Source: Gammaproteobacteria bacterium
GTDB taxonomy: Bacteria; Pseudomonadota; Gammaproteobacteria; SZUA-152
Length of the DNA: 22,094 nucleotides
Assembly: GCA_030617485.1 (NCBI GenBank)
Contig: JAUWVK010000009.1
Span: 1 to 22,094 of the forward strand
Direction: 5' to 3'
Shown here: positions 406 through 17,636 of the stretch, one piece after another
Layout of the letters: each line of letters opens with the position of its first letter
Position numbering within the stretch: position 1 is the stretch's first letter
Notes under the pieces: model-generated
Database searches by the model: none
Told to the model about the DNA's origin: nothing
Seen by the model: only the letters and a program-made list of their open reading frames with translations
Translations under genes and position numbers: made by a program

Positions 406-434
406 TTGACCCACTTTCAGCCCCGATTTATAGT
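406..434 (+). promoter_or_regulatory. Sigma70-type promoter for the TIGR02449-zapA-ssrS unit
   Basis: TTGACC (406-411) and TATAGT (429-434) are separated by 17 bases; each hexamer matches five of six consensus positions. Transcription would start near 441, leaving a leader of about 36 nt before the ATG at 477. The -35 box sits inside a short perfect inverted repeat, TGGGT-TTG-ACCCA (401-413), which could be an operator or chance. Confidence 0.55.
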
Positions 435-476
435 GAGAGACAACAACACTGTTTTACCAGAGGGTACAATTTCGTT

Positions 477-686
477 ATGGCCGAATCGGATATTAGTAAG
501 CTGGAACAACGCATTGATGAGCTGATTACGCTCACTGAATCGTTGAGTAACGAAAATAGCCTCATGCGTGATCGCCAGGATATTCTGGTGGAAGAACGTG
601 CCAGATTGATTGAAAAGGCTGAACTGGCGAGGTCACGAGTGGAAGCCATGCTGGTGCGTCTCAAAGCCATGGAGACCGAAACGTGA
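477..686 (+). CDS. TIGR02449-family small coiled-coil protein (ZapB-like)
   Basis: This 69-residue, highly charged, all-helical protein shows a heptad-like pattern (ISKLEQRIDELITLTESL) over almost its whole length. It has no signal peptide or membrane segment and should be cytoplasmic. Proteins of this length and composition directly upstream of zapA are the TIGR02449 family, which resembles the division factor ZapB. The stop overlaps the zapA GTG (GTGA at 683-686), so the two are probably translationally coupled. AGAGG at 459-463 is a plausible ribosome binding site, 13 bases ahead of the ATG. A role in Z-ring organisation alongside ZapA is inferred from the neighbour and the fold, not shown by the sequence. 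Confidence 0.85.
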   Translation: MAESDISKLEQRIDELITLTESLSNENSLMRDRQDILVEERARLIEKAELARSRVEAMLVRLKAMETET

Positions 687-1009
687 GCCCAACTGACACT
701 TCGGTTGAGACAGAAGCCGTTACCATTCGTGTGCTGGACAAGGATTACCAGATAGCGTGCCCGGTTGATGAGCGGGATGCATTGCTGGATTCGGCGCGGT
801 TTCTTGACGGAAAAATGCGCGAAATACGCGACCATAGAAAGATGGTCGGAACAGATCGTGTGGCAGTCATGGCGGCTCTGAATATTACCCACGATCTGTT
901 GCAGTGTGAGTCTGGAAAAGATGGTGGATCCGGTAGTAAAACAAAGCTACGCAGTCTTCAGGCCAAAGTGGAGGCGGCAATTAGTCGTGGTCGGCAATTA
1001 GAGCTATAG
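683..1009 (+). CDS. zapA: Cell division protein ZapA
   Basis: The 108-residue protein has the ZapA layout. An N-terminal beta-rich part carries VTIRVLDKDYQIACPVDE and ALLDSARFLDGKMREIRD. DRVAVMAALNITHDLLQ follows, and then a C-terminal coiled coil (LRSLQAKVEAAISRGRQLEL). ZapA is a cytoplasmic tetramer that cross-links FtsZ filaments at mid-cell. The GTG start at 683 overlaps the upstream stop and fixes the N-terminus; the first ten or so residues are poorly conserved in the family. 6S RNA follows immediately, as it does in many Gammaproteobacteria, which supports the identification independently. Confidence 0.92.
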   Translation: MSPTDTSVETEAVTIRVLDKDYQIACPVDERDALLDSARFLDGKMREIRDHRKMVGTDRVAVMAALNITHDLLQCESGKDGGSGSKTKLRSLQAKVEAAISRGRQLEL

Positions 1010-1020
1010 AAGACTAGAGG

Positions 1021-1026
1021 TATGAT
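1021..1026 (+). promoter_or_regulatory. Possible -10 box for 6S RNA
   Basis: TATGAT matches five of six -10 consensus bases and would start transcription near 1033, just ahead of the 6S closing stem. The base run 17 upstream (998-1003, TTAGAG) is a poor -35. 6S may also be processed from the zapA transcript. Confidence 0.35.
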
Positions 1027-1033
1027 TTAAACA

Positions 1034-1234
1034 AGTTTCAGTTTGGCGTTTCCTGGGGTGTTCGATACTGTACCGACATTTTCTTGGCCCATGCTTAACC
1101 ATTTGGGGACATAACGTCGGTGTTGTGTGCATGTCCGTGCTTCGGAAAGCCTGATATGTCGACCGTTGTTCCCACGTAACTCGCTCTGGATCCAAGAGCG
1201 ACGGTACACCGGCACATTTGGGAAACGCCTCCTT
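1034..1234 (+). ncRNA. ssrS: 6S RNA
   Basis: The roughly 190-200 nt stretch between zapA and the 5-formyl-THF cyclo-ligase gene is the standard gammaproteobacterial place for 6S RNA. Both ends form the long closing stem: GGCGTTTCC (1045-1053) pairs with GGAAACGCC (1221-1229). Inside it, TGTACC near 1070 pairs with GGTACA near 1203, and ACCGAC near 1073 can pair with GTCGGT near 1118. The molecule is therefore a long, bulged, largely double-stranded hairpin, as expected for an RNA that mimics an open promoter. 6S RNA binds sigma70-RNA polymerase and serves as a template for pRNA in stationary phase. The ends are estimated from the stem and the -10 box, so they may be off by about ten bases. 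Confidence 0.87.
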
Positions 1235-1260
1235 TAATTACACTTCGGCACATTAGCAAA

Positions 1261-1291
1261 TTGACACGTTAGCAAACAGGCGCGCTACCAT
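1261..1291 (+). promoter_or_regulatory. Weak candidate promoter for ygfA
   Basis: TTGACA (1261-1266) is a perfect -35 hexamer. The best -10 downstream is TACCAT (1286-1291, four of six) with a long 19-base spacer. Two near-identical ACRTTAGCAAA segments flank the -35 (1250-1260 and 1266-1276). Read-through from the 6S transcript is an alternative source of ygfA mRNA. Confidence 0.3.
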
Positions 1292-1307
1292 TTACAGGAT
1301 TCCTTGA

Positions 1308-1916
1308 GTGACCGACTTAAGCGCATTGCGTCAACAACTGCGGGCTCAAAGAAACGCTCTGGATGAGGTTGAGCAGTCTCAACTGAGCCAGCGTGCAGTT
1401 CAGCGACTGGTTCGGCATCGCATTTTTCGTGCGGCACAACACATTGCCTGTTATTTGCCCAATGATGGTGAGCTGGATATTGCTCCTCTGATTGACCAGG
1501 CCTGGGCGATGGGGAAAACCGTTTATTTGCCGGTGCTGAGCTCCATACGTCACAATCATTTGCACTTTTTAGCCTATAAGCCGGACGATGAGCTGGTGCG
1601 TAATCGATTTGGCATTCCGGAGCCGGTGAACCGTAGTCGCCGGGTAGTCGATGTTAAACGCCTTGATCTGGTGTTAATGCCTCTGGTGGGCTTTGACTCT
1701 ATAGGCAATCGATTGGGAATGGGCGGGGGGTTTTACGATCGTAGTTTTGCTTTTTTACGGCGACGACAATGCTGGTTCAAGCCTGGGTTGCTTGGGGTGG
1801 CTTACGATATTCAGGAAGTGAAAACGTTGAAGAATAATGCCTGGGATGTGCCGTTGAACGGGGTGGTGACTGAAACCGGTGTGCGGTTATTTTCCAGCAA
1901 GAAACCCGCTGGTTAA
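1308..1916 (+). CDS. ygfA: 5-formyltetrahydrofolate cyclo-ligase
   Basis: This 202-residue cytoplasmic enzyme converts 5-formyl-THF to 5,10-methenyl-THF with ATP, recycling a folate storage form. Diagnostic elements are the N-terminal basic helix LRQQLRAQRNAL and CYLPNDGELDIAPLI, where the motif usually reads Y.P..GE.dt..li. FGIPEPV and the C-terminal signature NRLGMGGGFYDRSF (normally R.G.GGGYYDR) complete the match. Length is typical of the family. The start is a GTG at 1308 with ACAGGA eight or nine bases upstream. A position directly 3' of 6S RNA is conserved in many relatives, where the two are co-transcribed. The gene is also called fau or MTHFS in other annotations. Confidence 0.93.
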   Translation: MTDLSALRQQLRAQRNALDEVEQSQLSQRAVQRLVRHRIFRAAQHIACYLPNDGELDIAPLIDQAWAMGKTVYLPVLSSIRHNHLHFLAYKPDDELVRNRFGIPEPVNRSRRVVDVKRLDLVLMPLVGFDSIGNRLGMGGGFYDRSFAFLRRRQCWFKPGLLGVAYDIQEVKTLKNNAWDVPLNGVVTETGVRLFSSKKPAG

Positions 1917-1945
1917 TAGTTTGCCGATAGTATCGAACCGGGTTT
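1902..1945. terminator. Weak candidate terminator between convergent ygfA and the 58-aa gene
   Basis: AAACCCG (1902-1908) can pair with CGGGTTT (1939-1945), and the 3' arm continues into a short T run. The loop is long (30 bases) and the left arm lies in the ygfA 3' end, so the call is tentative. The symmetric A/T flanks would allow action in both directions. Confidence 0.25.
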
Positions 1946-2122
1946 TTAGTTTTTGCTGCGTGTTTGGGTACTTAGCTGGGCAGTATATGCAGAGCTGACC
2001 AGTTGCGCAGTTTTTGATTCCGATGAGTTCAACATGCCCTGTGCAAAACTACTGGCGACAACTCCTAGTCCGACAACGATAGCCAACACGGCCATCAAAT
2101 CTGGTTTTCTTTTCCGTTTCAT
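1946..2122 (-). CDS. Small single-pass membrane protein (58 aa), unknown function
   Basis: The reverse strand from an ATG at 2122 to a TAA at 1946-1948 encodes 58 residues. The N-terminus is strongly basic (MKRKRKPDLM) and is followed by one clear hydrophobic helix (residues 9-27, LMAVLAIVVGLGVVASSFA). A polar, Ser/Thr/Gln-rich tail completes the protein. The basic start predicts the N-terminus inside the cell and the tail in the periplasm. The composition is that of a real membrane protein rather than of random sequence. No good Shine-Dalgarno is visible (only CAGATA before the ATG). It converges with ygfA and lies about 250 bases downstream of the DUF1501-like gene. I do not recognise a named family. 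Confidence 0.55.
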   Translation of the reverse strand: MKRKRKPDLMAVLAIVVGLGVVASSFAQGMLNSSESKTAQLVSSAYTAQLSTQTRSKN

Positions 2123-2373
2123 TATCTGTTTCTGTTATGAGTTAATTGATTTTCGGCCTACAATTCCAGTAGTAAATAGAAATTGTGGCTGCCTTACTAT
2201 TGATAACGGCTGCCGCTAGTTTTTATTTAGAAAAGCAGATTTTTTTGCGAGCTCGTAAAAATAACGGAAGAATTAGATACTCACGGGGTGCCTGGTGAGA
2301 AGAATTGATTACCATATCTGCACGGATAACCCGCGGAACAGTTGTTTAAACTGGACAGAGACTGGCGCTTGTT
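2123..2373. other. Intergenic, AT-rich, no gene seen
   Basis: No convincing ORF is present on either strand. The notable structures are an 8-bp palindrome CGAGCTCG (2248-2255) flanked by T7 and A5 runs, and GGCTGCC repeated twice about 21 bases apart near 2190. Neither forms a normal terminator. The stretch holds the 3' flank of the three-gene operon and presumably the promoter of the 58-aa gene. Confidence 0.5.
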
Positions 2374-4053
2374 TTATCTAATTGAATTAAACGCGGTGAG
2401 GCCATCCATGGAGAAAGCATTACCCAGGTTGCTGCCAAAGAGACTGGTATAGCGGTTCTTGAAGTCTGTTCCATGCAAAGCCAGATAATTCAGTATCACC
2501 GTTTCTACTAGTAGATTGACGTTATTCGCCGCTGGGCTGGAAGCAGTATCCACCGAGCCATCCGAAGTGCGGAACCAGCCGATTTGTTTGTGCAGGCTGA
2601 GACCATCAGGTGCGGGCTGCAGCAGTGTTGCCTGCCCACCCGGATTGTAGACCAGGAAGAACGAGCCGGCAGTGGAAGAGTTGTCACCAGTCCATACACC
2701 CTTGCCGCGCCCCGGGTCAGTGAAATCATTGCCGTCGAGCGTGCCATTACTGGCAACTGAGCCGTCACTGCAGACGTAGATCATCACAGGCTTACCAACA
2801 CGTTTAGCGTATTCCAGGCAGGCACCTATGCACTTCCCGGCGCGTTCATCACGTGCTTCACCAACCGAGCGGTTGCCAGTGTGGTAATCGTAGCCACCCA
2901 TGGTGATTGTGCCGGCACCAGCATGGCCGTCTATAACCATTTTCATCACCGAGGCAGTTTTGCGGAATTCACCATCACCATCAAATTCTGCTTCAGTAAA
3001 AATTCCGCCAGTGTCATTTACTATAATTCGATCTGCCGGAAGCTTCGCATTGCGGTCATCTGGGCTTATTTCTTTGCCAACGAAGCGCTCGGCAATATCG
3101 GCGGCTTTGAGGTAACCACATTTCACCAAATCCTTGATAACTGCATCGGCTGTTATTTGTGTATTAACCTGATCGATTTTTTTGTCGCTGAGGCGCACCA
3201 CCGATTCCATTACTGCTTTTACATCTTCCGGGTCGCTTAGCACGCCAGTGAGATTGCCAGTATCCACTAAACCAGTCACATCCGATGGGCGATCCACCTT
3301 GGTGGGTCGAACCGAGGTATCTATCATGCCGGCTGGTGCCATCGAGTTGCCGCCAGATTCTGAGTTACGTGAGCCGATAAGTGTGACAATACCGCCATTA
3401 GCCCCGGTCTTGGCAATGCCATACATAGGGTTATGGGGATTGTTACCAGTATCGTTGTCGGAACGGGCCGGTATTACTGCGCCATTGATGTTGGGGGCGG
3501 TTTCAACTGGATTAATTTTATCCATGATGCCACGCAGAAAGCCGCTGTCTGAGTGAAAAGGCAGTCCGAGCCTGATGTCGATGAAATCGTTATTAGGGCC
3601 ACTTTCCGGTGATGCAGTTGGATCTGTGACTCCTGGCACCATGTCACCGGGTATGCCCATCTTGCTGTAGCCTGCTGTGCTGATGGGTGAATCCATGTAT
3701 CCATTCGGACCGCCTGCCAGCACATTGGAGCCAATCATATTGGAGCCACCGGCCAGGTCGAAACAGATAAACGGAATTTTGTTGCCGGCACCGAGGCCAC
3801 CTAATGTGCAGTTGGCGTTGCCTGGCAAAGTTAAGCTGGCTGCCAGGGTCTCTAGGTCAGCAGACAGTGCTGCTTGGGCCGCGCGAGGATTGGCAAACAG
3901 GCTAAATAGTGAACCTCCAAGGGCTACGCCAGTACCTGAAATGAACCCTTGAGCAAGAAAATCACGCCGCGTTACTGGCCGCGCATGGTCTCTATGGAAT
4001 AGAGGGGCGTCGGGTGAAAGTTCGGGTGTTTTTGGATGACGTCGTTTGGTCAT
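2374..4053 (-). CDS. Tat-exported DUF1501-like protein, unknown function
   Basis: The protein has 559 residues. A twin-arginine signal (TRRDFLAQG, RR at 29-30) is followed by a hydrophobic stretch and a likely cleavage after AQA near residue 61. It is therefore exported folded to the periplasm. The core shows GGYDYH (386-391), an Arg/Lys-rich helix with CLEYAKRVGKPVMIYVCSDGS (412-432) and a Gly/Asn/Asp-rich loop. This order resembles DUF1501 (GG.D.H, then a helix, then V.V...SEFGRT...NG..GTDHG), a family with an alkaline-phosphatase/sulfatase-like fold. The usual SEFGRT is replaced by CSDGSV, so activity cannot be assumed. It is last in an operon with two heme proteins, 35 bases after the lipoprotein gene, with a strong site (AGGAAAGG) before the ATG. 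Some databases may carry misleading secretion-pathway names for such proteins. Fold similarity is moderately sure and function is unknown. Confidence 0.8.
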   Translation of the reverse strand: MTKRRHPKTPELSPDAPLFHRDHARPVTRRDFLAQGFISGTGVALGGSLFSLFANPRAAQAALSADLETLAASLTLPGNANCTLGGLGAGNKIPFICFDLAGGSNMIGSNVLAGGPNGYMDSPISTAGYSKMGIPGDMVPGVTDPTASPESGPNNDFIDIRLGLPFHSDSGFLRGIMDKINPVETAPNINGAVIPARSDNDTGNNPHNPMYGIAKTGANGGIVTLIGSRNSESGGNSMAPAGMIDTSVRPTKVDRPSDVTGLVDTGNLTGVLSDPEDVKAVMESVVRLSDKKIDQVNTQITADAVIKDLVKCGYLKAADIAERFVGKEISPDDRNAKLPADRIIVNDTGGIFTEAEFDGDGEFRKTASVMKMVIDGHAGAGTITMGGYDYHTGNRSVGEARDERAGKCIGACLEYAKRVGKPVMIYVCSDGSVASNGTLDGNDFTDPGRGKGVWTGDNSSTAGSFFLVYNPGGQATLLQPAPDGLSLHKQIGWFRTSDGSVDTASSPAANNVNLLVETVILNYLALHGTDFKNRYTSLFGSNLGNAFSMDGLTAFNSIR

Positions 4054-4088
4054 GGTCCTTTCCTTAATCTCTTTATGTCTCTAGCAGC

Positions 4089-6938
4089 TTACTGAATTAG
4101 CATGATTGCGCTGCCCAGGACAGAGGTACACAGGGCTTTGGTAACCGCACGGGTGCGTATGTCACTATTGTCGCAATTTACATTGATTAGTGGGTCCGGG
4201 TCGTTGCAGACATTCGTCATTACAATGCCTAATTTATCGAACAGATTGTTTGGGTTGGTTCCAACTGGACCGATGAGTTCCGCTTTTACGTCTGCTTTGC
4301 TGGGCACATTTGTGAGTGTTACGCCAACAATAGGAGTCGAGTTGGGATCAGGATAGCCCACCATTTTGTTGTACAGAGCATCCACTATCTGATCTTTTTC
4401 TGTTGAAGAGGCAAAAGCAGTAGCAACAGGTGAATTAAAGCCAACAAAGCCGTTAAAGAAACTGTCACGTAGGCCAATGTTCAAGCCAGTGCTTTCTACC
4501 AGAGCATCACAATACTGGATTGCCAGTTGGGCGATTGCCATTTGATTGGCAGAAACAAAGCCCTCGATGGTTTCTACCGGAGGCAGTTGTTGCCTGATAG
4601 TGTCGAAGGTGACTTTTACATCGGTGGTATTGCGGTCAACGCCAGTAAGTTCTGCCATGGTGGCATTAATTTCATCGAAGGTGCGCAGGCCGATGTCCGA
4701 GGTTCGTGTGCCAATAACCGGTGATGTCAAACAGGTAGAGATGTTAGCGACGTCGCAAACATATTCAGCGTCAGCGTGGGCGCCCTCATCGGTGTTGGAT
4801 CCAAACTGTTCAAAGCTCAGGAAGAATTCGTCAGCACCCGCGCCTTTTTCCAGTGCGATGATGGTGCCGATACTGGAGACCACCTGGCCGCCATTCGCGG
4901 CATCATAGGCGGCGACATTAATATTAACAGGCGTCGGTTTGCCGACGTTAACAAAGGCTTGTCCCACGGCAGGTTCTTTGCCGTTGAGGCCAATACGCAT
5001 GCCGACAATATCCGCGTTGGCGATATCAGGATCAAATCCTGAATTCAGGCTAATGAAGGTAGGCGTGTTGAACAGGTAACTGTAGCTGTCAAACTGGCTG
5101 ACCAACATGTAAATGAAACACTGATCCCCTCGGGGGTTTCTTGCGGTCACCGCAGATATCTGGAAGCAGTTTGAGTCGCTTGGCGGTAGCGCTGGAGTGT
5201 CCATCAAATCGCTGACACTGAACATCAGGAAGAATTTTTCACCCACGCCGGCATCAAAATTTTGGGTGACTTGTGCTGGCGTCATAGCACGATTATGAAT
5301 GGCTACCAGGCGTAGCTTTCCAGCCCACTGGTGATCACCACCGGCTTCGCTGCCGAGTATGAAAGCAAAGCTATCGTCCCAGTTGGTGATACTGCCGGGT
5401 GCAACGGGGTCCACTTCACCACTGTTGTCATTGGGATTATCAACCCCGAAAATATCAATCCCGGAAACATCAAGCCCATTGACATAAATCCTGCGGCCAT
5501 TGATGGGGTCGTAGGTGACCACCACATGTTGTTGCGAGGCCTGCAGGTCTTCATCGGCATCGTCGGTGATAAAAGAGGCCTGGCCATTGGCGTCACTGTT
5601 TTCGTTACGGTTCATGTACTCGTAACGATATTCTGCCTGGCCCAGGGTGAAGTTGCGGGTGGTATGGCCGGCGGAATAGGTAATGATGCGTGACGGGTCA
5701 CCGGCCTCGCCCTGGTTGACATTAGCGGGCACGACCCAGGCTTCAATGGAATATTCTCCACTTGAAACTATTTGGTCTCTGAGCTTGGTATTTTGAGCAG
5801 AACCCTGGGCTCGACCGGAGATAAACTCCACGCCCCAGCCACCTACCCATTTGAAATCAATATCAGCATTGCCCGACAGGTTAAGGTCAAGCGCTGGCTC
5901 TACACCACTGGTGTCGTAGAGTGTATTGCCACTTCCTGATTTCATTTCATACAGGGCGATGGTGCTGGAATCATCACGTGCTCCACCACTGGCTAGAATA
6001 CCGTCGGTCAGATCTAGCGCTTTACTGGTGACCCAGGTGTCGTCTACTGCAGTAGGAAGGATGCTGCCAGCAAATTCGATTATTTTTTCCAACATTAATT
6101 GGCCAGAGGTAATGCAGCCGGTAGGATCGGCTCCCGTTGGCGTGGCCCAGCAGTTATGGAATTCCGGATCCAGGCGTACCACCAGGCGCGAAATGGCTGG
6201 GTCGTCCAGATTAATTTTCTGGCTGCTAACGACGGCAGCATAAGCGGCATTCACGTCACTTTCGGCGAAGAAGGGTGATTGGGGTGTCGATGCAGATTCT
6301 GTATGACAATTAGCGCAATTGTCTCTGAGCAGGGGCCACACAGTTGTTTCAAAGCCAGCGCTGTCGGAAGGGAAGCTTTTACTATCGCCAGTATTTCGTA
6401 TGGCGGGTGCGGTTAAGACAACGACATTGGTTGTGCCACCGCTGCCAACAGTACCGCCGTTGGCCCAGTTAGTGATGTAACCCAATACAATGTCAGCTAA
6501 TGCGTTACAGGCACCGGTATTGCCGCAATTGTGGCCTTCCCTGATTTTTTCGACTATCTCTTGTGGTGCTGTGGGGTCTGCAGTGGCTGGGCGGAGTGCT
6601 GGCAGGTTAACGATTGTCTTCGTCTGAGTGTAAGCGATATTGACGTCGCTGGACTCCATGAAAAAGGGTGATTGGGTGGTATTGCCCTGTGAGTCGTGAC
6701 AATTCGTGCACTGTTTGTCACTCATTTTGTTCCAGAACTCTACCTTGAAGGTACAGGCGTCCGTGGTGCTACACGAAGGCCCGGAGTATGCTAAAACGCG
6801 ATTGGTGGTGCCAACATTGGGCGTTGATTCTGTTGGTACGCTGTCACAGGCGACCAGCAAAAGACCGGCAAGCACAGCCCCAATTCCCTTGAGGTGAAGG
6901 CTTTGGCATAAAGTATCAATAGTGCGTGTGGTCTTCAT
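4089..6938 (-). CDS. Diheme c-type lipoprotein with LamG-like domain
   Basis: The protein has 949 residues. The N-terminal lipoprotein signal has lipobox LVAC (Cys31) and Asp at +2, the residue that in enterobacteria favours inner-membrane retention. Two c-type heme sites follow: CTNCH (77-81) and CANCH (208-212). Each sits in a repeated module: C..CH, then QSPFF.ES (89 and 220), DVN.AY, and a downstream HNC (136 and 261). This indicates an internal duplication. Residues about 320-575 look like a LamG/concanavalin domain: IALYEMKSGSGNTLYDTSG, EYSIEAWVVPA, HVVVTYD, GRRIYVNG, WAGKLRLVAIHNRAMT. The C-terminal 370 residues match nothing I recognise. The ATG follows the stop of the upstream heme protein after one base. 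A periplasmic electron-transfer or binding role is inferred. Confidence 0.85.
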   Translation of the reverse strand: MKTTRTIDTLCQSLHLKGIGAVLAGLLLVACDSVPTESTPNVGTTNRVLAYSGPSCSTTDACTFKVEFWNKMSDKQCTNCHDSQGNTTQSPFFMESSDVNIAYTQTKTIVNLPALRPATADPTAPQEIVEKIREGHNCGNTGACNALADIVLGYITNWANGGTVGSGGTTNVVVLTAPAIRNTGDSKSFPSDSAGFETTVWPLLRDNCANCHTESASTPQSPFFAESDVNAAYAAVVSSQKINLDDPAISRLVVRLDPEFHNCWATPTGADPTGCITSGQLMLEKIIEFAGSILPTAVDDTWVTSKALDLTDGILASGGARDDSSTIALYEMKSGSGNTLYDTSGVEPALDLNLSGNADIDFKWVGGWGVEFISGRAQGSAQNTKLRDQIVSSGEYSIEAWVVPANVNQGEAGDPSRIITYSAGHTTRNFTLGQAEYRYEYMNRNENSDANGQASFITDDADEDLQASQQHVVVTYDPINGRRIYVNGLDVSGIDIFGVDNPNDNSGEVDPVAPGSITNWDDSFAFILGSEAGGDHQWAGKLRLVAIHNRAMTPAQVTQNFDAGVGEKFFLMFSVSDLMDTPALPPSDSNCFQISAVTARNPRGDQCFIYMLVSQFDSYSYLFNTPTFISLNSGFDPDIANADIVGMRIGLNGKEPAVGQAFVNVGKPTPVNINVAAYDAANGGQVVSSIGTIIALEKGAGADEFFLSFEQFGSNTDEGAHADAEYVCDVANISTCLTSPVIGTRTSDIGLRTFDEINATMAELTGVDRNTTDVKVTFDTIRQQLPPVETIEGFVSANQMAIAQLAIQYCDALVESTGLNIGLRDSFFNGFVGFNSPVATAFASSTEKDQIVDALYNKMVGYPDPNSTPIVGVTLTNVPSKADVKAELIGPVGTNPNNLFDKLGIVMTNVCNDPDPLINVNCDNSDIRTRAVTKALCTSVLGSAIMLIQ

Positions 6939-6939
6939 G

Positions 6940-8214
6940 TTAACTACCCCTGCAATACACGGCTGATTCGGCGAACACCTGCTTGAGGTTGAAGTTACTT
7001 GCCTGGAAGTTTTCTATCAGGCCACCCGGGCCGCTGATCTTGTTGCGATCTGCCGCATCCACCGGGTCTCGCAGACAAACATTCTTGAAAACTTTTTTGA
7101 CCTGACATTGTGCGAAGGCGTAACTGTCCGCCAGTTCACGGCCCATGGAAGCAGCGCCTGTACCGGAACCTGTGCTGCTGCTGCCTGTTGCCCAGCCCCA
7201 GCCCATCACGCTATTGGGTCCGGCACGCCAGTAGTTGTCCCAGCGATCACCTGGATTGTCTGGTGGGTTGTGTTGAGTGACATAACCGAATTCGAAGTTG
7301 TTGCCATTGATGAGGTATTTGGGTTGCACGATGGCGTCGGTGAAGCCCATAAAGCCGTCATCAGTATTGGGGTCCATGTCTGGATCATCAATATAATCGT
7401 AATAGGCAAGCGCCTGGGTCATGGGATCCATGCCAGCATGGCAACCTACGCAGGCATTCATGTATATGCGGCTATCGCCACCGGGGCTCCGGGAAACATC
7501 TTGGCGAACCCTGTCCGGGCTGCGGGTGGTGTCTTTGATTTGTTCCAGATCAGTACAGAGATGGTTGAGCAGGGTAAAACGAAACATGGCGCGATTGGTG
7601 CCGTCGATTAAAAAAGCTCTGGCGCCCTGACGAGTGCTCATAATGCCAGCAGCAGCTGCGGCTGAAGCCTGTGTAGTTTGTGTCAATATGTCCTGCAAAT
7701 CGGAATTTTGATCATCTATGGCTTCATAGTGGGCATTGCTGTTGGCTGAATTGGCAGGTGAAATGCCAGTGCCGACATAAAGGATGTTGTCATAAAGGAT
7801 GCGGCGGAAGTCGAGATCATCTCGAACAACGCCAATTACTGTGGCGGTGTAATCATTAAGAGGTGCGAAGACGGTTTGTTCTTCGTTGGTCCATGGGGTA
7901 ATAAAATTTTTCAGGGTAACGCGATAAAAATCCTGGCCAATGCATTCGTCACCAGCGCCATCGTTGGTGATAGCATCCAGGGCTGCATCGTTAGCATTGC
8001 CGGCAGTCACTTTGGTTTGCAGTTGATCAAGGCAGGCGGCGCTTGGTGGTGTGCCTACAAGTCGGTCATGGATACGTTTTGCCTGGTCGCGAGCACCAGC
8101 ATGGGCATTTGATGAGGCACCAATTGCCAGAAATACCGCTAGCAGGGAAATGATTACCACAGGCAGAAGCCGAGTTTGTTTGGCTTCCTGTTGTTGGTAA
8201 GTTTCGATACTCAT
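6940..8214 (-). CDS. Exported mono-heme c-type protein, DUF1588/DUF1585-like
   Basis: The protein has 424 residues. A hydrophobic segment (17-33) precedes AHA-G, a good signal-peptidase site near residue 39; an uncleaved anchor is also possible. A single heme motif CVGCH (255-259) continues as AGMDPMTQALAYYDYID. This closely resembles the C..CH..MDP.G.ALE.FD pattern of DUF1588-type proteins from planctomycetes and other bacteria. The end (FAQCQVKKVFKNVCLRDP and NFNLKQVFAESAVYC) resembles the following DUF1585 part. The N-terminal RIHDRLVGTPPS and DDLDFRRILYDNILYVG recall DUF1549/DUF1592-type helices. It is the first gene of the operon, with AAGGATG as ribosome site and a long leader carrying a CRP-type site. 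Function is unknown; redox or substrate handling in the periplasm is inference. Confidence 0.82.
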   Translation of the reverse strand: MSIETYQQQEAKQTRLLPVVIISLLAVFLAIGASSNAHAGARDQAKRIHDRLVGTPPSAACLDQLQTKVTAGNANDAALDAITNDGAGDECIGQDFYRVTLKNFITPWTNEEQTVFAPLNDYTATVIGVVRDDLDFRRILYDNILYVGTGISPANSANSNAHYEAIDDQNSDLQDILTQTTQASAAAAAGIMSTRQGARAFLIDGTNRAMFRFTLLNHLCTDLEQIKDTTRSPDRVRQDVSRSPGGDSRIYMNACVGCHAGMDPMTQALAYYDYIDDPDMDPNTDDGFMGFTDAIVQPKYLINGNNFEFGYVTQHNPPDNPGDRWDNYWRAGPNSVMGWGWATGSSSTGSGTGAASMGRELADSYAFAQCQVKKVFKNVCLRDPVDAADRNKISGPGGLIENFQASNFNLKQVFAESAVYCRGS

Positions 8215-8401: not shown

Positions 8402-8407
8402 CTTATA
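8402..8407 (-). promoter_or_regulatory. -10 box candidate of the heme-protein operon
   Basis: On the minus strand the hexamer reads TATAAG, five of six consensus bases, with a start predicted near 8395. The centre of the CRP-type site would then lie about 44 bases upstream, close to the -41.5 position of class II activation but about three bases off. No good -35 is present, as is usual for activator-dependent promoters. Confidence 0.45.
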
Positions 8408-8431: not shown

Positions 8432-8447
8432 TGTGATAACGATCACA
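8432..8447 (-). promoter_or_regulatory. CRP/Vfr-type binding site
   Basis: TGTGA-TAACGA-TCACA gives both half-sites of the CRP consensus exactly, with the canonical six-base spacer. It lies 218 bases upstream of the first heme-protein ATG. It is the only perfect site noticed in the window. The spacing to the -10 candidate suggests activation of the three-gene operon by cAMP-CRP or an orthologue. Confidence 0.65.
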
Positions 8448-8654: not shown

Positions 8655-9776
8655 TTAGGGCTTCAGCCTTTTTTTAATGGCAGCTATGTGTTCATCGGCA
8701 CCCCAAATGAGTTTCTTGTTGCAGTATTCCAGCAGAGGGATGATTTGCGCCGCAATCGCATTAAGGTGAGGGACGAGTGCATCGGGTCTGCCCTGTAACA
8801 GGATACGGATTGCAGCATCGATACTGATTCTCTTTTTCGCGGCCTTTTTCTGCTCAGTAGCCATGAGGCTGTTACCGCCCGCGGCCTGTGCTTTGGTAAC
8901 GTACTTTTCAGCAAGAGAGAGATATTCCTCAATAGCCTGTACTTTATCGACGCCGTGATTGACCAGGCCAATACTAACGGTGAGGGAAAGGTCTGAATGC
9001 TCATTGTTGAATGGCGATTCAGAAATCTGTTTCCGTATGCGATTACAGACAATTTCAGCTTCTGACCAGCCCAGTGTTGGCGCAATAATCGCAAAGCGGG
9101 AATTGCTGGTTCTGGCCAGGGTATCTTCTGTACGGATGCTGGTCTTTAGTGATTTGGCAACAGCGGTTAGAGCATTGACGATGATTTTTTTATCACCGGT
9201 GGCTCTGAGGGCTTCGAAATTATCCATACCGACTACGATGACAGACAGGTCATGATCGTGACGGGCGGCAAAGGCAAGATCCTGTTTGCCGCGTGTCAGG
9301 AAATAGTTTTTGCTGCGGATGCCGGTGGCTTTATCGTCGGTGCTTTGTTTTTCCAGATCACTGGTGGTTTTAACCTGTTTGGCCTGTGAGCGAACACGGG
9401 CCAGTAACTGGGCCTTATCAAAGGGTTTGGTGATGAAGTCAGTGGCACCGATTTTCAGTGCTTCCTGCCGGGATTCTTCATCCTCGGCAGCCGTGATCAT
9501 GATGATGGGGATTTCCTGAAGGCGCTTGTCATCATGGGCGCGGATACGCTCAATTAATTCATAACCATCCAGTTTGGGCATGCCGGCATCGGTGAGTACA
9601 ACCTGGATTTTTTTATCGGCCAGCAGGGCTTCCCAGCCTTCTTCACCATCGATGGCCTCAGCAATTTCGAATTCATCCTGCAACACGTTGGAGAGGGACA
9701 CTCGCACCAGGCGCGAATCATCCACGATGAGTATGCGAGGTTTAGGTGATTCCTGATTGTCGGGTGATTCAGCCAT
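8655..9776 (-). CDS. Response regulator with degenerate GGDEF domain
   Basis: The 373-residue cytoplasmic protein starts with a CheY-like receiver. Its acidic pair is DD 19-20, the phosphoacceptor is Asp63 (VLTDAGMP), Thr95 lies in IIMITA, and Lys117 in ITKPFD. A GGDEF-fold domain follows (about 150-305), recognisable from LSVIVVGMDNFEALR, IRTEDTLAR, SLTVSIGLV and AEKYVTKAQAAGGNS. The catalytic loop, however, reads SNSRF (224-228) instead of GGDEF. Diguanylate cyclase activity is therefore not expected, and a sensor, binding or scaffold role is likelier. The basic C-terminal 60 residues are helical and unrecognised. No histidine kinase is adjacent. AGGA lies upstream of the ATG. Confidence 0.88.
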   Translation of the reverse strand: MAESPDNQESPKPRILIVDDSRLVRVSLSNVLQDEFEIAEAIDGEEGWEALLADKKIQVVLTDAGMPKLDGYELIERIRAHDDKRLQEIPIIMITAAEDEESRQEALKIGATDFITKPFDKAQLLARVRSQAKQVKTTSDLEKQSTDDKATGIRSKNYFLTRGKQDLAFAARHDHDLSVIVVGMDNFEALRATGDKKIIVNALTAVAKSLKTSIRTEDTLARTSNSRFAIIAPTLGWSEAEIVCNRIRKQISESPFNNEHSDLSLTVSIGLVNHGVDKVQAIEEYLSLAEKYVTKAQAAGGNSLMATEQKKAAKKRISIDAAIRILLQGRPDALVPHLNAIAAQIIPLLEYCNKKLIWGADEHIAAIKKRLKP

Positions 9777-12171: not shown

Positions 12172-12327
12172 ATGGTCTATTTTCCCCAATACGGCGTTGG
12201 AAGGTTTTTGCAATCCATATTAACGCTCATGTTAACTCTGGTTCTCAGCCATTTTGTTGGGAACAGAATCGTCCGCCTGAATTTAGGGGAAAGTCTTGAG
12301 AAAAATATCCTAATTTTTACTATCTAA
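12172..12327 (+). CDS. Possible small membrane ORF (51 aa) between rpiA and the zincin-like gene
   Basis: An ATG two bases after the rpiA stop opens a 51-codon frame that fills the whole gap. It ends in TAATG, so its stop shares one base with the ATG of the next gene. The product starts MVYFPQYGVGR and has a hydrophobic stretch (12-29, FLQSILTLMLTLVLSHFV), a basic patch (NRIVR) and a short hydrophobic end. Neither this ORF nor the following gene has a good Shine-Dalgarno, so the frame may exist to couple translation. A 150-base frame open by chance is not rare, hence the low confidence. No family is recognised. Confidence 0.28.
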   Translation: MVYFPQYGVGRFLQSILTLMLTLVLSHFVGNRIVRLNLGESLEKNILIFTI

Positions 12328-13100
12328 TGAGCGCATTTCGACAATTTCGCATTTTAGTGTTGCTGATCATTTTATTTCTGGTCGCGGCGGGCACTTACTT
12401 AACACAGTTGCGGAGTACTTCCTGGGATCGCCCGCTTACTGTTGCAATTTACCCAATCAACGGTGATGGCAGTACGGTGTCGCGAAACTATATTGATGGA
12501 TTGTCTCTAGAAAATTTTAAAAATATCGAGACTTTTTTTGTTGATGAAGCGGAGCATTATGGGCTGTCATTGAAACATCCGGTGGAATTGGTAATGGGAC
12601 CAGTATTAACTGAATCACCCCCAGAGCCACCCAGGGGCAGAAATATTCTGGGAGTGATGTGGTGGAGTCTGAAAATACGATTTTGGACAAGAAATATTTC
12701 TAAGGAGTACGGTCCGCCAGCCGATATCCAGATGTTTGTATTGTTTCACGACCCTGAAACCAGTCCTCGCCTTGCTCACAGCTTAGGGCTGCAAAAAGGT
12801 TTGCTTGGTGTGGTGCACGCTTTTGCTAGTTGGCGCCAGGCTGGCAGCAATAATGTGGTGATAGCGCATGAGCTGTTGCACACTCTTGGGGCCACCGATA
12901 AGTATGATTTGCAAACTAATCAACCTATTTACCCAATAGGATATGCTGAACCGGAAAAAACTCCGCTGTTGCCGCAGGAATATGCAGAGATCATGGCGGG
13001 TCGTATCCCCTTATCGAAACATGAGGCAGAGCAACCCGAAAATCTAGACTCGGTATTGGTGGGTGAATATACGGCGATTGAGATTCACTGGATTGATTGA
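12327..13100 (+). CDS. Membrane-anchored zincin-like protein (HELLHxxGxxD)
   Basis: The protein has 257 residues. An N-terminal membrane anchor or uncleaved signal (9-26, ILVLLIILFLVAAGTYL) is followed by a domain probably in the periplasm. Near the C-terminus, VIAHELLHTLGATDKYD (178-194) carries the zinc motif HExxHxxGxxD: His181, Glu182, His185 and the candidate third ligand Asp191. About 30 residues later AEIMAGRIP (220-228) could be the methionine turn of metzincin-like enzymes. The HExxHxxGxxD form is known in some secreted metalloproteases, where Asp replaces the third His. Peptidase activity is inferred and the substrate is unknown. No Shine-Dalgarno precedes the ATG, which overlaps the stop of a possible small ORF. 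I do not recognise a named family. Confidence 0.75.
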   Translation: MSAFRQFRILVLLIILFLVAAGTYLTQLRSTSWDRPLTVAIYPINGDGSTVSRNYIDGLSLENFKNIETFFVDEAEHYGLSLKHPVELVMGPVLTESPPEPPRGRNILGVMWWSLKIRFWTRNISKEYGPPADIQMFVLFHDPETSPRLAHSLGLQKGLLGVVHAFASWRQAGSNNVVIAHELLHTLGATDKYDLQTNQPIYPIGYAEPEKTPLLPQEYAEIMAGRIPLSKHEAEQPENLDSVLVGEYTAIEIHWID

Positions 13101-16259: not shown

Positions 16260-17636
16260 ATGAAACGATTTGTTGCCATTTTTTCGACAGCAGTAATTTG
16301 TGTGACTGTGTTTGCACAGGCGCAAGCAGAGACAGTGGTGCTTGATTTGCCTCAGTCTATTGAGCGGGCAATGAACACTGATCCCCGCATCACTGAAAAA
16401 GAAAAACTGGTTGATGCGGCGCGCGCATTGTTGGCCGAAGCTCAAGGCGGTGACGGCTGGATGTTTGGAGTGAACAGTTTTGTAGGGCTGGCGCCAAAGC
16501 TGCGAGGTGGTTTTTTTGAGACCAGCGATCCTGATACGGGTGAGCAGGGCGTGGGTATCCCCGATGATGCATTTGATTTTAGTGGTATCTCCCCCTGGTA
16601 TTTCGTGGATTTTTCATTGATAAAGCCCCTGCATACATTCGGCAAACAAGAAAATTACGTAAAAGCGGCGACAGGAAATATTCAAATCAAAAAAGGAGAT
16701 GTTGCGTTACGCCGTGGTGAAACAACATTAGAAGTGACGCGTGCTTACAATGGTTATCTGGCGGCTCGTGATACTCGATTTTTATTAGAGGATACACTGA
16801 AAAAACTTCAAGCTGCTGTCGAACTGGTTGAAGGCTGGCTTGAGAAGGGTGAAGGTTCAAGCAAGCAATCAGATTTGTATGCTTTGCGAACAGGGACAGC
16901 TTTTTTGCAACGGTATATTGCTGAGGCAAGTGGTCTGGAAAAAATTGCCATGGCTGGCCTGCGATTGCTCACAGGCATTAGTTCTGATGATACATTGGAC
17001 CTTGCCGACAAACGGTTGAGTCCGGTGGCATTGCCTGAAGGCGAACTTAAAGAATTACAGTCAAAGGCGTTAGTGCAACGCCCAGAAATTAGTCAATTAA
17101 CAGCGGGCTTAAAGGCGCGTCGTGCTTTGGTGAGGGCAAAAAAGAGTGATGCTAACCCAAACCTTTACACAGGCGTTGTAGGTGTAATTTCTTTTGCGCC
17201 ATCACGTGAAAATCTCTCTGAGGTGAGCACATATGACCCGTTTTATTCAGCGGGCGCAACACCGGTGCTGGGTCTGAAGTGGGACTGGAATAGTGGTCGT
17301 CAACCGGCACAGGTGGCTCAGGCACAGGCGGAACTGGAAGCTACTTTGGCGGTCAAATCTTTTGCCCAGCAAGGCATTCCGTTTCAGGTGGCGGAGCAGT
17401 ACCACACGGTTCATTCGCATCACGAAATGGTGCAAAAGCTTTATGAGGGAAGTCGTAATGGCCGGCGCTGGATGATTAGCAGTTACGCAGATTTCGAGGC
17501 GGGCATTGAAGAGGCCGATAAAGTGATTAGCGCCTTTCTTGGTTATGTGCAGGCCCACAGTGATTATTTGATAACCGTGAATGATTATAATTTACACGTT
17601 ACTCGCCTGAAGGTGATTACAGGAGAAGTTCAATGA
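16260..17636 (+). CDS. TolC-family outer-membrane protein inside the mla operon
   Basis: The protein has 458 residues, with a signal peptide cleaved after AQA (about residue 23). The mature part shows the two-fold TolC pattern. LPQSIERAMNTDPRI starts the first helical half, and VKAATGNIQIKKGDVALRRGETTLEVTRAYNGYLAARD continues it. ALVQRPEISQLTAGLKARRALVRAKKSDANPNLYTGV starts the second half. YFVDFSLIKPLHTFGK and LGLKWDWNSGRQPAQVAQAQAEL are strand-turn elements of such channels. TolC proteins are trimeric outer-membrane ducts. No periplasmic adaptor (HlyD type) lies next to it. The ATG is one base after the mlaD stop and the end overlaps mlaC, so it is made together with the Mla proteins. Participation in lipid traffic is inferred from position only. 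Confidence 0.85.
   Translation: MKRFVAIFSTAVICVTVFAQAQAETVVLDLPQSIERAMNTDPRITEKEKLVDAARALLAEAQGGDGWMFGVNSFVGLAPKLRGGFFETSDPDTGEQGVGIPDDAFDFSGISPWYFVDFSLIKPLHTFGKQENYVKAATGNIQIKKGDVALRRGETTLEVTRAYNGYLAARDTRFLLEDTLKKLQAAVELVEGWLEKGEGSSKQSDLYALRTGTAFLQRYIAEASGLEKIAMAGLRLLTGISSDDTLDLADKRLSPVALPEGELKELQSKALVQRPEISQLTAGLKARRALVRAKKSDANPNLYTGVVGVISFAPSRENLSEVSTYDPFYSAGATPVLGLKWDWNSGRQPAQVAQAQAELEATLAVKSFAQQGIPFQVAEQYHTVHSHHEMVQKLYEGSRNGRRWMISSYADFEAGIEEADKVISAFLGYVQAHSDYLITVNDYNLHVTRLKVITGEVQ

Follow-up and report, generated by a model that had tools for sequence, protein, structure and literature searches.

A conserved trio of heme, LamG and twin-arginine protein genes in Gammaproteobacteria, linked to an HZS_alpha-like cluster and possibly part of a CRP-controlled envelope machine

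What do three adjoining genes for exported heme and twin-arginine proteins do in the envelope of a gammaproteobacterium? The question is raised by contig JAUWVK010000009.1 (assembly GCA_030617485.1), of which positions 1 to 22,094, the whole stretch of DNA analysed, are here called the window. The genes, named heme1, lamG2 and tat3 (Table 1), had been taken in an earlier sequence-only reading for a gammaproteobacterial counterpart of the known pairing of heme proteins with a DUF1501 protein. We found that the trio is a real conserved unit, that it is linked to and co-inherited with a cluster encoding HZS_alpha-like, DUF3570, TlpA-type and barrel proteins, and that it is co-inherited with a TPR/ExbB/ExbD module. 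The reading we tentatively prefer, with a confidence that stops a little short of even, is that the trio is the redox/hydrolase arm of a CRP-controlled, Agl/Glt-like envelope machine.

Table 1. Trio genes and upstream elements in the window.
Feature	Position	Strand	Description
heme1	6940..8214	minus	424 aa, exported monoheme protein, DUF1588/DUF1585-like; heme site C255-H259
lamG2	4089..6938	minus	949-aa lipoprotein, predicted two tandem related monoheme modules plus LamG_3 domain (residues 379-557)
tat3	2374..4053	minus	559-aa twin-arginine protein, predicted alkaline-phosphatase-superfamily fold (residues ~87-559), without Pfam family
Perfect CRP-type box TGTGATCGTTATCACA	8432..8447	minus	217 bases from box to heme1 ATG
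Putative -10 element TATAAG	8402..8407	minus	24 bases after CRP box

The coordinates of the open reading frames bore out three minus-strand genes, separated by 1 base (6939) between heme1 and lamG2 and by 35 bases (4054-4088) between lamG2 and tat3, and a total of three CxxCH sites, at residue 255 of heme1 and residues 77 and 208 of lamG2, with none in tat3. As for the three export routes that had been proposed, the motifs are present, namely a Sec-like hydrophobic stretch ending AHAG at the heme1 N-terminus, the lipobox LLLVAC of lamG2, whose last residue is C31, and the twin-arginine motif TRRDFLA at residue 28 of tat3, while the routes themselves are read from these N-terminal motifs alone, without a signal-peptide program. 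Leaving aside homologues in frames shorter than 380 (heme1), 600 (lamG2) and 480 amino acids (tat3), a single CxxCH was present in 88/88 heme1 proteins, two were present in 81/90 lamG2 proteins and an RRxFL-type motif in 91/97 tat3 proteins, 96 of these 97 being CxxCH-free. Judged from the sequences, this pattern of heme sites and twin arginines exceeds chance.

Scanning of genomes returned at least 80 loci, in gammaproteobacterial or symbiont/endosymbiont records. All 71 loci with over 4.5 kb of sequence upstream of tat3, a set that includes the window, have the order heme1-lamG2-tat3. Of 16 additional loci, with tat3 identity down to 41%, 15 keep this order, the sixteenth being truncated by a contig edge; the three genes do co-occur, as the sequence-only reading had implied. 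Loci L001-L080 were selected by similarity to the query, whereas a sample of 369 genomes of the class Gammaproteobacteria was not so selected; the centre of the genome samples, G007 (Aliiglaciecola, judged by locus L012), is itself tat3-bearing. In this class sample tat3 was present in 50 genomes, two of which (G315 and G374) were counted on short fragment matches, and in a sample from the phylum of G007 it was present in 5/299. At E<=0.001, at least 7,998 homologues were found for tat3 and at least 7,998 for heme1. Among single records, P0045, a tat3 homologue of 653 aa, has a central segment that is repeated, perhaps through a duplication in the assembly; G598 has two trios on different contigs (L128 and L129) and G347 a second, divergent one (L130); at L003, genes resembling those of MSHA pilus biogenesis (MshM, MshL and MshJ, by eye) lie at 406-4224, divergent from the trio.

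Which genes accompany the trio? Neighbour clustering recovered a cluster adjoining heme1, in divergent orientation, that encodes an HZS_alpha/PD40 diheme lipoprotein (HzsA-like), an SH3-barrel protein, an OMP_myx_plus barrel, a TlpA-type thioredoxin and a DUF3570 protein. Partner proteins matched PF18582 (1e-13), DUF3570 (5.5e-13), ApbE (5.7e-79) and OMP_myx_plus (3.8e-49), beside the TlpA-type match, and in 12/12 genomes the only OMP_myx_plus match over cut-off sits at the HzsA-like cluster. Of the 63 loci whose upstream sequence exceeds 9 kb, 54 have the HzsA-like gene beside the trio; the nine that lack it there are the window, L002, L003, L006, L008, L010, L011, L016 and L022. Hydrazine-synthase-like nitrogen chemistry is suggested by the PF18582 match, this being the middle domain of hydrazine synthase alpha, and by a wider hzs-like enzyme family proposed by others (accessible part of PMC10732223). 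It is nevertheless extremely improbable, as the HzsA-like partners reached 34.6 and 42.7 bits of the 800 that the hydrazine synthase alpha model NF052339 requires, and the scan of neighbour genes did not reveal one resembling hzsB or hzsC.

In the class sample, HZS_alpha was found in 57/369 genomes and together with tat3 in 43 (Fisher p=1.8e-36), the two being at most 10 kb apart in 32 of these 43. A coil protein, A5, was found in 82/369 genomes, 54 of them at ortholog level, and at that level, by a cut-off (E about 1e-55) set after the scores were seen, in 45/50 tat3 genomes vs 9/319 others (p=5.9e-43); with all matches counted, the figures were 48/50 and 34/319. Chance falls far short of explaining how often either partner accompanies the trio. 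The A5 search also returned, at G001:C34:39719-40000, a 24,160-aa open frame, perhaps masked sequence.

Downstream of the trio, 48 loci extend for over 9 kb; 14 of them carry ApbE, 17 the coil protein, 17 a 633-aa TPR protein, 14 a 941-aa TPR protein and 10 ExbB. The TPR/ExbB/ExbD module, whose pieces were read in partner loci L062, L136, L139 and L140 and not in the window, comprises three TPR proteins, of which one has the N-terminus of a lipoprotein, together with ExbB, a pair of ExbD proteins and a TonB-like protein; the TonB_N match in L062 is under its cut-off. Since two barrels adjoin heme lipoproteins, DUF3570 and ApbE, the trio might belong to a porin-cytochrome-type outer-membrane conduit, in which barrels, heme lipoproteins and flavin would serve extracellular electron transfer. 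Known outer-membrane conduits, however, are heme-rich chains, and the CxxCH sites are few here (one in heme1, usually two in lamG2 and two in the HzsA-like protein); an alkaline-phosphatase-fold Tat protein, a LamG domain and an ExbB/ExbD/TPR module also have no place in such a conduit, and we regard it as improbable.

The link to CRP that had been proposed for the trio is supported by a perfect box at 8447..8432 of the window. Base composition predicts 0.02 perfect copies in the window, and with one mismatch allowed two matches were found against a chance mean of 1.00; as one-mismatch matches are near chance, the weight lies with the perfect copy and with its conservation. With TGTGA-N6-TCACA as consensus and 4,150 random 480-base windows as background, a perfect box was found upstream of heme1 in 12/86 loci vs 0.7% of random windows, and a box with at most one mismatch in 28/86 vs 3.3%. 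At the latter threshold, control upstreams gave 6/95 (tat3), 1/90 (lamG2), 3/66 (TlpA) and 0/58 (DUF3570), and none of these four sets held a perfect box. By eye, a similar block follows the box in the 12 perfect-box loci, and in 4 of them the hexamer at offset 24 after the box agrees with TATAAT in at least 4 of 6 positions. The conserved box thus predicts CRP regulation of the heme1 promoter.

All eight relatives lacking an adjacent HzsA-like cluster belong to these 12 loci: in the window's clade, the trio stands apart from the cluster and has its own conserved CRP box. Seven unlinked genomes were inspected, and in each the cluster was located elsewhere in the genome. In four of the seven, all near relatives (G002, G003, G004 and G006), boxes were present at both loci, perfect at the trio (L003, L004, L006 and L010) and at most one mismatch away from the consensus in front of the SH3-barrel operon (L146-L149). 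In the unlinked genomes the coil and TPR genes come after DUF3570 (L146, L147, L148, L150 and L151); at L152 the 633-aa TPR protein was not recognised, and L149 ends before the coil and TPR genes.

To what families do the two heme proteins belong? The window heme1 reached E 0.026 and 15.2 bits against PF07627 (DUF1588), under the cut-off of 27, and had no PF07624 (DUF1585) match. Among 22 aligned heme1 proteins, in which six cysteines are invariant, DUF1585 was matched by 16 (best 1.9e-6) and DUF1588 by 15 (best 0.011) at E<=1, and PF07624 was annotated in 20 of 120 homologues among the matches listed. The link to DUF1588/DUF1585 therefore stands for the homologues, while the window protein remains under both cut-offs; by these matches, heme1 appears to be a minimal DUF1588/DUF1585-like monoheme protein. 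For lamG2, the LamG domain was upheld by 55.8 bits against LamG_3 (PF13385), above the gathering score of 27.6 (E 7.5e-15). Each of its two CxxCH sites is followed further on by HNC, and a two-sequence BLAST shows the two modules to be alike (E 2e-12, 36% over 85 columns), pointing to a duplicated monoheme domain. The gene at the lamG2 position in L133 and L134 has Pfam cytochrome c domains, and LamG was not found there in the Pfam scan; LamG is thus not essential.

The DUF1585/DUF1588 matches of the heme1 homologues and the LamG domain in the middle gene would also suit a free-standing counterpart of the planctomycete/verrucomicrobial PSCyt3-PSD-plus-partner sets, engaged in periplasmic oxidative glycan processing, with LamG binding the sugar and the cluster next to it by chance. 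Indeed, according to the accessible part of PMC5615132, PSCyt proteins carry LamG_3 and other carbohydrate-binding modules, and PSCyt2 and PSCyt3 genes usually adjoin one of two unknown families. We nonetheless consider this explanation unlikely, given the co-occurrence of HZS_alpha and coil protein with the trio, the CRP boxes that four near relatives have both at the trio and at the unlinked cluster, the dispensable LamG and the absence of any significant sequence or profile match of tat3 to DUF1501.

This last point was the central one in the sequence-only reading, in which the 559-aa protein was held to be DUF1501-like. No Pfam or NCBIfam family was found for tat3. PF07394 (DUF1501) was matched by 0/24 members of the tat3 family at E<=1, and the L084 and L085 proteins had no match of any kind even at E<=10, whereas a DUF1501 protein (L093) scored 118 bits. 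Alignment of tat3 with DUF1501 by hhalign gave probabilities of 0.8 and 0.5 out of 100, hmmsearch in both directions gave best E values of 0.083 and 0.16, none significant, and a PDB search by sequence did not find a DUF1501 structure. The DUF1501 identity is thus not sustained, and the GGYDYH core that had been offered as its link is a short motif resemblance, nothing more. The alkaline phosphatase fold suggested for comparison was matched in a predicted model (predicted local distance difference test score 81), by which tat3 has an alkaline-phosphatase-superfamily core fold; each of two comparison listings held 50 entries, all of which we take, by their names, to belong to this superfamily. 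Of the proposed counterpart of the heme/DUF1501 pairing, the DUF1588/DUF1585 link, the alkaline phosphatase fold and the fixed order are retained, and DUF1501 by sequence is dropped.

The two-metal ligand set of classical alkaline-phosphatase-superfamily enzymes served as reference for mapping ligand sites on tat3 by motif order. D99, D389, H391, D430 and D457 are invariant in 75 sequences, and all 75 have Gly431 where classical enzymes have His after the second Asp. The missing His beside D430, together with the invariant cysteines of heme1 and the TlpA-type neighbour in relatives, would fit an assembly or quality-control set, in which tat3 is a non-catalytic scaffold with this fold and the machine is gated by the hemes as sensors of redox or oxygen. 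The five invariant residues, however, would fit a retained metal site, and we hold such a role to be quite unlikely.

The redox/hydrolase-arm reading is preferred because of the component likeness of the TPR/ExbB/ExbD module to the Agl/Glt core and because DUF3570 is flavinylated by ApbE (as described in the accessible part of PMC8238504). The three genes would form one operon, whose products are a DUF1585-like exported protein with one heme, a LamG lipoprotein with two and a Tat-type protein of the alkaline phosphatase fold. Electrons might pass between TlpA or flavinylated DUF3570 and the heme proteins; the Tat-type protein would act on, or hold, an anionic ester group carried by a surface polymer to which LamG binds; the ExbB/ExbD/TPR part would supply the force to move or assemble the polymer at the cell surface, and the whole would be a single machine under CRP control. 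It is possible, if on the doubtful side, that the standalone Agl/Glt-like machine, whose function was unreported in 2011, is redox-coupled in this way, with heme, flavin and thiol proteins and a new alkaline-phosphatase-fold Tat family modifying a surface polymer moved or exported by ExbB/ExbD/TPR, both halves being under CRP.

Several observations weigh against the redox/hydrolase-arm reading. The proteins of the TPR/ExbB/ExbD module are near the trio in just 10 to 17 of the 48 loci with sufficient downstream sequence; HZS_alpha is not found in 7/50 tat3 genomes, and 14 genomes have HZS_alpha without tat3; since the genomes are related, the Fisher p-values overstate independence. In the near relatives G001 and G005, the HZS_alpha matches are weak and in long frames (9.7e-9 and 3.3e-9), and the coil matches are weaker (3.6e-50 and 3.7e-36). 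Most loci with an adjacent cluster lack a perfect CRP box at heme1; the divergent unlinked genomes G598, G355 and G515 have no box within one mismatch at heme1, and among these three only L151 has one (perfect) where the SH3-barrel frame starts, L150 and L152 having none. With Gly431 in place of the classical His, tat3 may be non-catalytic. Finally, gliding_GltC (NCBIfam) was over cut-off in 0/12 genomes and had no match at the cluster, single proteins scoring 16.1 bits against a cut-off of 450, and gliding_GltE gave 33.3-43.7 bits against a cut-off of 225, no better than other TPR models; the module's resemblance to the Agl/Glt core is one of component make-up. Two weak gliding_GltC matches, at G598:C3:165103-167759 (E 0.018) and G015:C1:1470349-1471694 (E 0.33), adjoin coil-protein paralogues away from the main cluster and are possible second Glt-like modules.

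The results place the tat3 family, with its thousands of homologues and no Pfam model, in a predicted fold and a gene system. This system joins three unknowns, namely planctomycete-type heme domains, HZS_alpha-like proteins outside anammox bacteria and the gammaproteobacterial Agl/Glt-like module, and its hosts with isolate genomes (Aliiglaciecola, Alteromonas and Microbulbifer) make it testable.

Other features were observed in the window. A response-regulator/GGDEF gene (8655-9776) is the trio's immediate upstream neighbour and shares its strand. A 6S RNA (RF00013, 70.7 bits) at 1047-1228 stands between zapA and a 5-formyltetrahydrofolate cyclo-ligase-like gene (the latter by eye), and a TolC-type outer-membrane efflux gene (PF02321, 7.5e-24) at 16260-17636 lies within an mla operon, between mlaD and mlaC. 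An exported-looking protein with a HELLH motif, encoded at 12327-13100, had no Pfam match at E<=0.001; at L128, a similar HELLH gene and ilvA- and rpiA-like genes adjoin a 44%-identical trio (by eye).

How does the system compare with those already described? As far as the accessible part of PMC5615132 describes it, PSCyt3-PSD2 (DUF1588/DUF1585; Planctomycetes/Verrucomicrobia) is like heme1 in having CxxCH followed by an MDP motif and a DUF1585-like C-terminus; the likeness extends to the LamG domain, found here in the neighbouring protein, and to a separate partner gene next door. Unlike in PSCyt3-PSD2, the heme and LamG proteins here each have a gene of their own, the partner does not match DUF1501 in sequence and the trio is regularly linked to HZS_alpha/DUF3570/TlpA genes. 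By eye, DUF1501 (PF07394) and tat3 share a twin-arginine N-terminus and GG-x-D-x-H and SDG/SDFG motifs in the same order, but the DHG motif of DUF1501 has no counterpart in tat3, which has WTGDN there; with the alkaline phosphatase superfamily (NPP, sulfatases, iPGM) tat3 shares its predicted fold.

The closest parallel in components is the seven-protein Agl/Glt core (AglR, Q, S; GltC, D, E, G), which, in the accessible parts of PMC3169522 and PMC3858216, occurs as a standalone set of unreported function in gammaproteobacteria and has the same seven component kinds as the module described here (TPR proteins, TPR lipoprotein, ExbB, two ExbD, TonB-like). The main text of PMC3169522 makes no mention of cytochrome, thioredoxin or DUF3570, which the present system has, and the sections consulted in the two papers do not mention the trio. 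The flavinylation clusters of DUF3570, ApbE, thioredoxin and DUF4266 likewise combine, in the part of PMC8238504 available, DUF3570 with a thioredoxin-like protein and ApbE, the last found here in some loci; unlike those clusters, the set described here is joined to an HZS_alpha-like lipoprotein, to barrels and to the trio.

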